Source of the DNA: an uncultured bacterium
Lineage (GTDB): Bacteria > Myxococcota_A > Polyangia > Polyangiales > Houyiibacteriaceae
Direction: 5' to 3'
Length of the DNA: 34,883 nucleotides
Assembly (NCBI GenBank): GCA_937998345.1
Contig: CALLDH010000075.1
Location: forward strand, 1 to 34,883
The notes below the pieces were generated by a model. It saw nothing but the letters and a program-made list of their open reading frames with translations. It did no database searches and was not told where the DNA came from. The position numbers and the translations under genes were made by a program. Shown piece by piece: positions 27,643 to 31,027 of this stretch (position 1 is its first letter; every line of letters begins with the position of its first letter).

Positions 27643-29754
27643 ATGCCCTTCCTCCTTGTCCTCGTCTCCGTCGTCCTGACAAGCTGCGTCAGGACTTCAA
27701 AGCCCAGCACCGAAATCCAAGCTCCCCGAATGCCTCCGCCCATCGCCCCCGCTCACGCTCACACGGTCACCCTTCACGGGGACACGCGGGTCGATGACTA
27801 CTTCTGGCTTCGCGAGAAAGGCTCGGCGGAGGTCACCGCGTACCTCGAGGCGGAGAATGCGTATGCCGAAGAGCAGATGGCGTCCACGGCCGCGCTGCAG
27901 AAGACCCTCTACGACGAGATCCTGGGGCGCATTCAGGAGAACGACCAGAGTGCGCCCTACCGCAAGGGCGAGTTTGAGTACTACCATCGGACCGAAGAGG
28001 GGAAGCAGTATCGGACCTACTGCCGGCGTGAGCCGGGCAAGGCTGAGACCGAGGATGTGCTGCTCGACATGAACGCACTCGCAGAGGGGCGGCCGTTTCT
28101 CGCCCTCGGGGTGTACGAGGTCTCGCCTAGCGGACGCTACCTCGCATTCTCCCTCGATGAGACCGGCTTCCGCGACTACACGCTTCAGATCAAGGATCTC
28201 CAATCGGGCGAGCTGCTCTCCGAGCGCATCCAGAAGGTGAAGTCAGCGGCCTGGGCGAGCGACGATGAGACACTGTTTTACACCGTAGACGACGAGACAA
28301 AACGGCCACATCAAGTCCTGCGCCATCGGCTTGGCGCGAGAGGTGCCGACGCGCTGGTCTACCAAGAGGATGATGAGCGATTTCGGGTAGCAGTGTGGCG
28401 CTCACGGAGCGGGGAGTACGTCTTTCGCGGCGCCTTCAGTCACACGACCAGCGAGATCGGGTTCATCTCCGGCTCGGATCCGACGGGCGGGTGGCGAGTG
28501 GTCGCGGAGCGCCGCCAGGACCACGAGTACGACGTTGCGCACCACGGCGGGGACTTCTTGATCCGGACCAACGACCGTGGACGCAACTTTCGGATCGTTC
28601 GCGCGCCGGTCGACAACCCCGGCCCCGGGTCCTGGCAAGAGCTCATCGCGCATCGCAATGGAGTGATGCTCGAAAGCTTAGACGTGTTCGAAGATTTCTA
28701 CGTGCTCCTCGAGCGCGAGACGGGTCTTCCATATCTTCGCGTCTCGCGGTTTTCCGACGGTGACTCCCATCGTATCGCGATCGATGAGCCGGTGTACTCG
28801 ATTCACCCGGGCACCAACGAGGAGTTCGCGACCGCTGTCTATCGCTATCGCTACGAGTCACTCACGACGCCAGACTCGGTGTTCGACTACGACGTTCGCT
28901 CCAAGTCGAGAACCCTGGTGAAGCAGATCGAGGTGCTCGGGGGCTACGATCCGTCCGACTATGAATCGGAGCGCCTTTGGGCGACCGCCCAGGACGGAAC
29001 CCAAATCCCAGTCTCGGTGGTCTACAAGACAGGCACGCCGAAGGACGGCTCCGCTCCCATGCTGCTCGTGGGCTACGGCTCTTACGGCTATCCGTACCCC
29101 ACGGGGTTCTCACACTCCCGCGTGAGCCTGCTCGATCGGGGCTTCATCTACGCGATTGCGCACATCCGCGGGGGTGGCGAGCTCGGCAAGCCGTGGCACG
29201 ACCAGGGACGGATGGAGAACAAGATGAACTCCTTCACGGACTTCATCGTGGTCGCCGAGTATCTGCTCGCCAAGCGATACACCACCAGCGGGCGTCTAGC
29301 GATTCAGGGCGGAAGCGCCGGCGGTTTGCTCATGGGCGCCGTCAGTAATTTGCGGCCTGAGCTCTTCGGCGCCGTCGTGACGCTCGTCCCATTCGTCGAC
29401 GTCCTCAACACCATGCTCGATGACACCCTTCCGTTGACGGTTGGGGAGTACGAGGAGTGGGGCAACCCCAACGACCCCGACGCATACGCGCGCATCAAAG
29501 CGTACTGCCCGTACACGAATATCGGGGCACACCCTTACCCCACCATGCTCGTCCGCACGTCCCTCAACGACAGCCAGGTCATGTACTGGGAACCCGCGAA
29601 ATACGTCGCCAAGCTCCGCGCGCTCAAGACGAACGACAAGCCTCTGCTGTTCAAGATCAACATGGACGCAGGCCACGGCGGAGCTTCGGGACGATACGAC
29701 TACTTAAAAGAAACCGCTCTCGACTACGCGTTCATCTTGACCCAGCTGCAGTAG
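27643..29754 (+). CDS. Lipoprotein prolyl oligopeptidase-family serine peptidase (S9A, oligopeptidase B-like)
   Basis: A 703-residue serine peptidase. The N-terminus MPFLLVLVSVVLTSC is a lipoprotein signal with a perfect lipobox (LTSC, Cys15), so it is probably anchored in the envelope, unlike cytosolic oligopeptidase B. Residues about 40-440 form the beta-propeller, including DDYFWLREK near the start, typical of the family. The C-terminal alpha/beta hydrolase has IRGGGELG, nucleophile Ser558 in GGSAGG, Asp643 in SLNDSQVMYWEP and His678 in AGHGG, a full catalytic triad. It cleaves short peptides after basic or proline residues; which one is not settled by sequence, although SLNDSQVMYWEP and AGHGGASGRYD match oligopeptidase B best. 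The gene stands alone, preceded by a hexamer array and followed by a 560-bp gene-free stretch. Confidence 0.94.
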   Translation: MPFLLVLVSVVLTSCVRTSKPSTEIQAPRMPPPIAPAHAHTVTLHGDTRVDDYFWLREKGSAEVTAYLEAENAYAEEQMASTAALQKTLYDEILGRIQENDQSAPYRKGEFEYYHRTEEGKQYRTYCRREPGKAETEDVLLDMNALAEGRPFLALGVYEVSPSGRYLAFSLDETGFRDYTLQIKDLQSGELLSERIQKVKSAAWASDDETLFYTVDDETKRPHQVLRHRLGARGADALVYQEDDERFRVAVWRSRSGEYVFRGAFSHTTSEIGFISGSDPTGGWRVVAERRQDHEYDVAHHGGDFLIRTNDRGRNFRIVRAPVDNPGPGSWQELIAHRNGVMLESLDVFEDFYVLLERETGLPYLRVSRFSDGDSHRIAIDEPVYSIHPGTNEEFATAVYRYRYESLTTPDSVFDYDVRSKSRTLVKQIEVLGGYDPSDYESERLWATAQDGTQIPVSVVYKTGTPKDGSAPMLLVGYGSYGYPYPTGFSHSRVSLLDRGFIYAIAHIRGGGELGKPWHDQGRMENKMNSFTDFIVVAEYLLAKRYTTSGRLAIQGGSAGGLLMGAVSNLRPELFGAVVTLVPFVDVLNTMLDDTLPLTVGEYEEWGNPNDPDAYARIKAYCPYTNIGAHPYPTMLVRTSLNDSQVMYWEPAKYVAKLRALKTNDKPLLFKINMDAGHGGASGRYDYLKETALDYAFILTQLQ

Positions 29755-29764
29755 AGCGAGCGTC

Positions 29765-29837
29765 CCGGGGCACGGCGGGACACGACACGGCAACTGCATC
29801 ACCGGAGAACGGCTAGCGACGCACGTGCTCGCGAGCG
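29765..29837 (-). repeat. Dispersed repeat, left copy (inverted orientation)
   Basis: Two blocks, 26 bp at 29765-29790 and 22 bp at 29816-29837, recur as perfect reverse complements at 30249-30274 and 30277-30298. The sequence between them (29791-29815) is also similar to the part following the right copy's second block. The unit thus looks circularly permuted relative to the right copy, as if cut from a tandem array at another phase. Confidence 0.75.
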
Positions 29838-29984
29838 GGACCCGCTCGGCCGTCTCTTCACGTCGAACTACGGCTAGCCTCCCCCCCACTCGCTGTGCCG
29901 CACATCGCGAGCCGTTCTCCTAGGTACAAGTCAATGTACGAGGGGCGTCGTGCGTGGCGTGCTTGGACTTAACCCTTTGAAAAA

Positions 29985-30006
29985 GGGGACTGTTTCCTTT
30001 TTCGTG
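29985..30006. repeat. Small palindromic element, REP-like
   Basis: CCCTTT-GAA-AAAGGG overlaps a second pairing, GAAAAAGG with CCTTTTTC around the loop GGACTGTTT. Similar short palindromes reading roughly AAAAGGGGACTG occur widely in proteobacterial intergenic regions, from memory. It could serve as a terminator or be a REP-type mobile repeat. Exact ends are approximate. Confidence 0.4.
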
Positions 30007-30114
30007 TGAGGAGTCGTCCATAGGGGATCGGACAAACGCGATATGGGGTGGAGTCGGCGTAGCGAGTGACAATCGGCACGACAGCAACCACCGCCGATTG
30101 GGCGCGAGCTCCGA

Positions 30115-30173
30115 GGGGCGCCTTGCGTGGCCTCAGGCCCCAAGTCCCTCCGGTCACCTTTGCAAGGCGCCCC
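30115..30173. repeat. 12-bp inverted repeat with inner hairpin
   Basis: GGGGCGCCTTGC (30115-30126) and GCAAGGCGCCCC (30162-30173) are perfect arms around 35 bases. The interior holds a second hairpin, GGCC-TCA-GGCC (about 30129-30139). It could be the stem of a structured RNA or the ends of a tiny mobile element. Confidence 0.5.
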
Positions 30174-30185
30174 GTCCGGCGCAAC

Positions 30186-30310
30186 CCCGTGTCGCGTTTG
30201 TCCGAGCCCCGGTGAACCTGTGAGCACGCCGACCCGTCCGCAGGGTTCCCGTGTCGTGTCCCGCCGTGCCCCGGTTCGCTCGCGAGCACGTGCGTCGCGT
30301 GCCGGTCTCC
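30186..30310 (+). repeat. Dispersed repeat, two diverged direct copies
   Basis: A copy starting at 30186 and another at 30248 share CCCGTGTCG, a GCCCCGGT core and GAGCACG at matching places, 62 bases apart. The second contains the exact reverse complements of both blocks of the left copy (29765-29837). Its end reaches the stop codon region of the CBS gene. Confidence 0.6.
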
Positions 30311-30316
30311 TGTGAT

Positions 30317-31027
30317 TCAGTTTCGGTTTCGGCGGGAGCGTGGGGCTGGGACTGTGTTGCCGGTTTTGCATGCCAGCCAATGCAAGACGTCCAACGACGA
30401 CAGGAGTCCCACGACCCTTCCGTTTGCGTCGACGACCGGAAGCCGGTGGATGCCTTCATAGGCCATCAATGCTGCGGCTTTCGAAACCGACTGATCTTCT
30501 TCCAGCGTGAACGACATCGAGGTCATGATGTCCTTCACTCGGCCGTCCGGAGTGACCCCATGCCGGAGGAGGTCGGTTTTGGAGACGACGCCCACGGGCC
30601 TTCCTTCCGCGTCGACCACGGGGACTCCGCTATACCCACCGTCGAGCAAGCAGCTCGCCAATGCAGGCAGGGTCACCTCTTCGGTCACGCACTGCACATT
30701 GAGGCTCATGATACGTGACACCGGCGTGCAATCGGCGCGCTCCCGACGCCTCCGTAGGAATCCTTCGCGTTCTCCGGTTTCGAGAAAGCGCCGGAGAGAC
30801 TGCCGCGCTGTCGGCGCGTTGCTCTCGTAACAGTGCAGCAGCCCACTTTGCTCCTCCCGGTCGAAGGACAGCCCGATATACTCCTCACACTCGACACACT
30901 CGTTCACCCGGACGGTGCGCATCTGCCGAGGGCAATAGACCGTGGAGTACGAGGAAGTCGCCCCATTCGCCGCCAGTGTCTGACGGACGCGAATCTCCAG
31001 CTCGTAGTACGGGGCCTTTGAAACCAT
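30317..31027 (-). CDS. CBS-pair protein with N-terminal Cys4 module
   Basis: A 236-residue protein, predicted cytosolic. Residues 1-95 contain four cysteines (C32, C44, C47 and C66, as YCPRQ, CVEC and LHCYE) that look like a zinc-ribbon-type site. Residues about 105-155 and 165-218 form two CBS motifs (VPVVDAEGRPVGVVSKTDLL and LPVVDANGRVVGLLSSLDVL), a Bateman module that usually binds adenine nucleotides. No enzyme or channel domain is attached, so it probably senses energy state or nucleotide signals and acts through a partner, perhaps via the Cys4 part. The C-terminal tail is basic (RSRRNRN) and runs into the adjoining repeat. The start ATG has GGGGGA upstream, inside a hairpin (31032-31058). 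It lies downstream of dacB on the same strand, across a hexamer array. Confidence 0.87.
   Translation of the reverse strand: MVSKAPYYELEIRVRQTLAANGATSSYSTVYCPRQMRTVRVNECVECEEYIGLSFDREEQSGLLHCYESNAPTARQSLRRFLETGEREGFLRRRRERADCTPVSRIMSLNVQCVTEEVTLPALASCLLDGGYSGVPVVDAEGRPVGVVSKTDLLRHGVTPDGRVKDIMTSMSFTLEEDQSVSKAAALMAYEGIHRLPVVDANGRVVGLLSSLDVLHWLACKTGNTVPAPRSRRNRN

Follow-up and report, generated by a model that had tools for sequence, protein, structure and literature searches.

In the window (the whole stretch of 34,883 nucleotides that was analysed), a gene for an S9 prolyl oligopeptidase and a gene for a CBS-domain protein converge on a stop-to-stop gap of 562 bp, which is filled by one copy of a mosaic element (Table 1). 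Gene calls throughout the analysis rest on codon usage, not on an annotation; no gene is called within the element, though unsupported ORFs cross it. The composite spans approximately 29765-30322, with a length of about 510-560 bp, and inverted ends are present. The left block, A, is an inverted type II end of the module M2, while A' is the same end in direct orientation, and a REP-like palindrome sits between the modules M1 and M2. The original prediction ended it too early on the right.

Table 1. Parts of the element copy and flanking genes in the window.
Feature	Position	Strand	Observations
Prolyl oligopeptidase (S9) gene	27643..29754	+	Pfam PF02897, PF00326; stop codon is the left border of the element
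A, left end: 3'-end remnant of an inverted M2, type II end CGGGGCACGGCGGGACACGACACGG	29765..29793	-	29765-29790 is the exact reverse complement of 30249-30274; resembles left termini at other loci
M1, structured centre module with block B (29816-29837)	29804..29922	+	Pairing in 97.4% of cells, over 26 pairs in 35 copies
REP-like palindrome TGAAAAAGGGGACTGTTTCCTTTTTCG, imperfect in the window copy	29966..30004	.	This part alone matches elsewhere in the genome; same kind in the G013 orthologous spacer
M2, complete three-helix module of 190 nt, closed by a stem of 27 pairs	30022..30211	+	Model R1, 210.7 bits; covariation
A', second M2 3'-end fragment, type II, outside the type I M2	30233..30274	+	Comparison with the G015 orthologous copy, whose M2 ends nearly so
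B', inverted piece of the M1 start, running into the CBS stop codon	30277..30322	-	Exact reverse complement of 29816-29837 at 30277-30298; other copies have inverted M1 starts that match 30277-30322
CBS-domain gene	30317..31027	-	Pfam PF00571; stop codon is the right border of the element

The analysis of the repeats confirmed that a 26-bp and a 22-bp block recur as exact reverse complements, as originally predicted. They are the longest (A with A') and second-longest (B with B') exact inverted repeats in 29500-30600, and both exceed the maximum of 18 bp reached in 300 dinucleotide-preserving shuffles of this 1.1-kb region (mean of the maxima, 10.9). With mismatches allowed, arms of 39 nt at 92% and 55 nt at 85% are obtained. 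The crossing order of the blocks was also correctly described: A (29765), B (29816), A' (30249) and B' (30277) follow one another along the sequence, so that both pairings together would cross. A pseudoknot was rejected, since the predicted fold of 29765-30275 pairs A with A' and B inside M1 and needs no crossing (z = -13.1, with 0 of 100 shuffles as stable).

A diverged direct copy had been placed beside the right-hand block. A weak likeness of this kind is present between 29809-29832 and 29870-29893 (71% over 24 nt, 61 apart), but it adjoins the left block, and both of its parts belong to the M1 fold. The pieces do occur in both orientations. However, the local tandem-repeat family proposed as their source was rejected, because the pieces are the ends and centres of an element that is dispersed through the genome.

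With 29745-30330 as the query, 95 matches were returned from the draft genome to which the window belongs (3.47 Mb in 346 contigs, 79% complete), a count that takes in short partial matches and one inverted end matching another, so the pieces of the element are not confined to this site. Nine long copies align over a core from about 29789 and have unrelated flanks, three of them being cut by contig ends. In many copies the 3' end of M2, 'CCCCG', abuts different sequence. At the G000 loci L004, L006, L009, L017 and L020-L025, many element copies stand at contig ends, and it is probable that the element repeat breaks these metagenome assemblies. Integron attC sites would stand in a cassette array with an IntI integrase; the 5-kb stretches examined show mostly single copies amid other genes. 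The top identity between copies of one genome was 0.95-0.99 in five of the nine genomes compared (G000, G001, G003, G005 and G015); no copy pair above 0.93 was seen in G013, G017, G006 or G012, with 2 to 5 copies at hand in each.

Each of the 19 genus genomes examined, and one of 18 others, gave DNA matches to the element; those in G009 and in the outsider G035 are weak, and both of these genomes are without M2 by covariance model. The covariance model R1 detected M2 in 18 of the 19 genus genomes (none in G009), with 1 to 60 matches each, numbers that are upper bounds since some represent one copy read on the other strand, as in G001. The larger genome searches used stricter filters and give lower bounds: among 144 genomes of the order, R1 matched 20, including two from outside the genus; a second model, R2, matched 28 of 317 genomes of the class, of which 18 belong to the genus and 10 do not, spread over 8 of 151 genera; and 12 of 377 genomes in a phylum sample matched under a stricter limit, all of the same order. 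The genome G170, from another order, was matched in the class search and is absent from the stricter phylum list. Furthermore, an exact 27-base piece of M2 occurs in 28 stretches of GTDB contigs, all titled as Polyangiaceae, Myxococcales or Deltaproteobacteria bins, which are read as Myxococcota. Single diverged M2 matches were seen in G016 (L136) and G018 (L137), the neighbours of L136 looking by eye like sulfatase and acyl-CoA dehydrogenase genes.

The shape of M2 is kept far better than the sequence of its stems. The consensus of alignment A1 (37 M2 sequences, five of the 42 distinct ones being omitted) contains 62 pairs, in which a long stem closes the fold and leads through a single branch point to two arms. 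In this alignment 99.1% of 2273 cells pair, 24 pairs have changed on both sides, and 184 cells with two-sided changes compare with 47 in shuffles. The class-level alignment A6 (36 M2 sequences from eight genera) gave similar figures, with 97.9% of 2044 cells paired, two-sided changes in 51 of 61 pairs, and 552 two-sided cells against 149.8 in shuffles. A6 was fitted to the model and is therefore biased towards it, but no slid version comes near, as pairing falls to 40.5-44.4% when partners are moved by 1 to 3 columns. The junction bases GUG(A/C)CAA, UUGGC(G/A)CG, CGAG, UUGC, UGCA and CCGUC are near-invariant across the eight genera. M2 copies are GC-rich (0.61-0.81).

Within a genome, closing arms match their own partner more closely than they match the arms of the remaining copies. 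The values were 0.885 and 0.467 in G020, 0.995 and 0.880 in G005, and 0.951 and 0.866 in G001, respectively. The difference was small in G013 (0.954 and 0.910), G032 (0.981 and 0.942), G015 (0.971 and 0.952) and G003 (0.881 and 0.860).

It is the + strand of this description that folds, whether as RNA or as single-stranded DNA. A double-stranded recognition site would show G·U and A·C mismatches about equally, so that an excess of G·U far above A·C indicates the folding of one strand. In the outer 30 nt of both arms, compared without any model in 82 of the 84 copies (L136 and L137 dropped), 168 G·U and 10 A·C were counted, together with 189 other mismatches. The ratio was 152 to 14 in the fitted alignment A3, for pairs whose commonest form is Watson-Crick, and 65 to 5 over all pairs of A6, part of the G·U excess stemming from two old U·G columns. 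For the inner arm P4, a crude test on 68 copies counted 2 G·U and 0 A·C besides 70 other mismatches and was uninformative.

The centre module M1 is also structured. In its alignment, built from 35 of the 36 sequences found (L144 was omitted for an insertion), 10 pairs carry two-sided changes, in 40 cells compared with 13.8 in shuffles. Other repeats were also observed. At L071 (G012:C95), a RAYT-like Y1 transposase gene has GGGGACWGTCCCC palindromes on both sides, at 1195-1215 and 1915-1948; the REP of the window copy could have come from this gene. Degenerate 6-base repeats of the GCCAGT or CACTGG type occur in spacers near the element or its orthologous site, at approximately 2193-2283 of L093 (G004) and in the right flanks of L057, L059 and L222. 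The element of G003 (L196-L202, L237, L238 and L182) differs in its centre, which holds several small GC-rich hairpins; in several copies, a 14-bp palindrome, GACGCCCGGGCGTC, lies just outside M2.

M2 also occurs as inverted doublets in G037, G049 and G001. Seven of these were read, with the two copies 84 to 246 bp apart and all 3' ends pointing outward, and two further doublets are listed (G037:C152 and a partial one in G001:C96); the partners differ in end type in three G001 doublets. Among 74 genus copies, an inverted M2 end lies within 500 bp upstream in 13 and downstream in none, a search for which the window's left block is too short, while direct M2 end fragments follow 10 copies and precede 5. 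Most genus copies, that of the window included, have a single full M2, the other surviving at most as a remnant. At L205 a wider inverted pair (1598-1786 on the - strand and 2501-2690 on the + strand) is separated by 714 bp, and this interval contains an uncalled 178-aa ORF at 1892-2425. The element varies in its outer limits, conserved sequence continuing past the M2 end in G003 and G037. The M2 of the orthologous G015 copy has a terminus close to the type II sequence, whereas the window has a type I M2 with a tail instead.

Based on these comparisons, the window copy is probably a decayed mosaic of a non-autonomous dispersed element with a foldback ancestry. In the ancestral unit, two M2 modules, the first inverted and the second direct, would have stood on either side of a centre (M1 in this genus), their 3' ends pointing outward. 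M2 as a single strand would fold into a three-helix junction, and this folded strand, either ssDNA or RNA, may be what a mobilising enzyme or cell factor recognises. Copies would then survive mainly where promoters stay undisturbed. Later deletions, the insertion of the REP and the exchange of type I and type II ends could have produced the shuffled pattern of the window, in which a type I M2 with its tail appears to have replaced the old M2, leaving the old type II end outside.

The occupancy of individual sites differs between species. The S9-CBS site holds the element in G000 and G015; the G013 spacer measures about 65 bp and contains a REP, and a different gene adjoins the CBS gene in G004. 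In the G013 spacer (L092, around 1436-1502), a REP palindrome and a TTAATTC motif were seen, without M1 or M2; this spacer thus takes up different repeats in different species. At a second site, M2 is present in G005 and G002 in opposite orientations, G003 has a short spacer, and the window's genome has a REP and M1.

The genes next to the 84 copies are convergent in 43 cases, tandem in 37 (19 '--' and 18 '++') and divergent in 2, with 2 unknown, compared with 22 convergent, 61 tandem and 39 divergent among 122 control gaps, which come from longer loci and are not matched to the element gaps in length. When overlapping called genes are excluded, the 84 copies divide into 50 convergent, 18 '--', 10 '++', 2 divergent and 4 unknown. 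An orientation rule relative to genes was rejected, because it amounts to the convergent excess and the tandem contexts are balanced. A called gene is overlapped by 12 of the 84 copies; 11 of these genes read right, often with the start called inside M2. Furthermore, for 26 of the 84 copies a distance of 2-19 nt separates the end from the right-hand gene's stop codon, a few of these copies being the same site in sister species. Copies near stop codons are expected without any targeting, since the gaps between convergent genes are short. Local GC skew gave no sign of a replication-strand bias (mean skew -0.0016 over 84 copies, p = 0.62).

The structure is also conserved in place. Six between-species pairs of copies at matching sites, picked for equal orientation, contain 81 changed base pairs, of which 77 still pair (50 by two changes and 27 by one) and 4 do not; in a null model with the same number of changes, about 119 pairs are hit and about 79 broken. 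All 16 changed pairs are kept in the two closest comparisons, L045/L210 and L061/L218. This conservation counts against dead copies, unless they have been overwritten by other copies. Separate insertion or exchange between copies may account for part of it, and some of the six pairs differ by end type.

The search for a mobiliser covered two families, Y1 transposases and reverse transcriptases. Y1 genes are present in 13 of the 19 genus genomes, but, over flanks of up to 1.5 kb on each side, M1 or M2 adjoins none of the 20 genus Y1 loci; REP palindromes stand on both sides of one locus. Outside the genus, Y1 was detected in 5 of 10 carriers and in 5 of 13 genomes without a match. It was not found in the carriers G037, G049, G032, G170 and G088, nor in the M2-rich G002 and G010, some of these bins being incomplete. 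Reverse transcriptase (PF00078) was found in 2 of the 19 genus genomes and not in that of the window. Since neither family tracks the element, strict REPIN and retroelement readings are disfavoured.

No autonomous copy with the same ends was seen among the candidates listed from 12 genomes, of which at most 150 per genome were scored. When the junctions were inspected by eye, neither a clear target-site duplication nor an empty site resolved cleanly to the base was seen. Collections of plasmids and phages contained no match to the element and the viral contigs no exact match to the 27-base M2 pattern, so that carriage by known plasmids or phages was rejected. Assignment to a known RNA family was rejected as well: no Rfam family reached its gathering threshold in the window, and the best result near the element was a microRNA model with an E value of 5.8, far below the cut-off. 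No description of the element was found in the portions available of the open-access literature searched (PMC3116915, PMC6006769 and PMC10969869 included), which is no proof that it is unpublished.

Several explanations compete with the decayed dispersed element. M2 could be a functional RNA, as its own transcript or as a 3'-UTR element (for instance in processing, as a terminator or in protein binding), that has been copied around and is kept by its function at the 3' ends of genes. The near-invariant junction bases, the asymmetry between G·U and A·C, the pairing maintained at the same sites between species and the copies ending close to right-hand stop codons all favour this explanation, which we regard as doubtful but worth serious attention. 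However, match numbers range from none to dozens within one genus, the sites differ between species, tandem contexts show no bias in orientation, short convergent gaps alone would place copies near stops, and no Rfam family matches. A bolder proposal, to which we give a slightly lower probability, is that a bacterial mobile structured RNA (or ssDNA) of a new type has M2 as its core. The three-helix module, near-invariant at its junction, would then itself be recognised, or would be the active agent of its own spread, its arm sequence being free as long as it is paired, and it would settle at gene 3' ends.

It is very unlikely that the element is a REPIN proper, moved by a RAYT (Y1/HUH) transposase. 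Its inverted intergenic doublets with compensatory changes resemble REPINs as far as the accessible text of PMC3116915 describes them, and both the REP-like palindrome inside the window copy and the palindromes beside the Y1 gene of L071 fit such an origin, but ends of 190 nt are not short palindromes, and the strict RAYT-driven form was rejected because Y1 is neither linked to M1 or M2 at the 20 genus loci nor associated with them outside the genus, several carriers and M2-rich genomes (some of them incomplete bins) having no detected Y1. Even less probable is a retroelement-like RNA, such as a retron msr-msd or an ORF-less group II intron copied through cDNA; an RNA-like structure on one strand with a long closing stem would suit it, and it was rejected on the rarity of reverse transcriptase in the 19 genus genomes, with no Rfam match either. 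Chance palindromes or an assembly artefact, suggested by the many copies at contig ends, can practically be dismissed: they are refuted by the exact repeats that exceed every shuffle and by the recurrence of the same module in named bins from several projects as well as in G013, a single-contig bin. The reading of the window copy as a decayed, dispersed element is itself weakened by the lack of a linked transposase, of an autonomous copy and, as far as the eye can tell, of a target duplication, by the genomes without near-identical copies, by the pairing maintained at matching sites between species, and by the 5 of 74 copies with a direct upstream end. The original prediction had named a mobile repeat and a structured RNA as alternatives, and both are supported by the covariation, the near-identical copies and the class-wide matches.

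Transposon ends are normally read as sequence. A repeat with a conserved structure and nearly free terminal sequence is unusual, and if the fold is what is recognised, it would offer a tractable case of mobility by shape. A covariance model is now available for this family, which has no match in Rfam 15. The element may also be the reason that contigs in these bins frequently terminate in one of its copies.

By analogy, the element may work like an oversized REPIN or foldback MITE, with inverted structured ends, many dispersed copies and decay products, to judge from the accessible parts of PMC3116915 and PMC10969869. REPINs are described in the text available from PMC3116915 as inverted doublets between genes with compensatory changes. 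The element shares with them the inverted intergenic doublets, a single-strand hairpin, the compensatory changes, the many copies, and singlets that probably arise by decay. The doublets of G037, G049 and G001 agree with REPINs in that an end motif is paired with its own inverted copy. However, the element is not a REPIN by definition, as its ends are not short REPs and no linked RAYT, the transposase to which REPINs are tied, was found. The ends are three-helix folds of at least two types, and the sequence of their outer arms is free to change if pairing is kept.

Bacterial MITEs have terminal inverted repeats, lack coding capacity and measure under about 500 bp. Much like them, the element is rather short (about 510-560 bp for the window composite) and intergenic, has inverted ends, stable stem-loops and no called gene, though unsupported ORFs cross it, and occurs in truncated or partial copies. 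In contrast to them, it is GC-rich, its inner junction bases are more conserved than its terminal arms, and neither a parent IS (within the Y1 and RT families searched) nor, by eye, a target duplication was found. BIMEs, which are mosaic REP clusters, are likewise described, in the sources as far as available, as mosaics of palindromic modules in both orientations between genes, whereas the modules of the element are far larger and of several kinds (M1, M2 and REP). With the structured RNAs of Rfam it shares covariation and near-invariant junction bases, although none of those families reaches threshold for it. Judged by sequence comparison, its large, shape-conserved ends, together with the absent Rfam match, would set the element apart from the known kinds of REPINs and MITEs.
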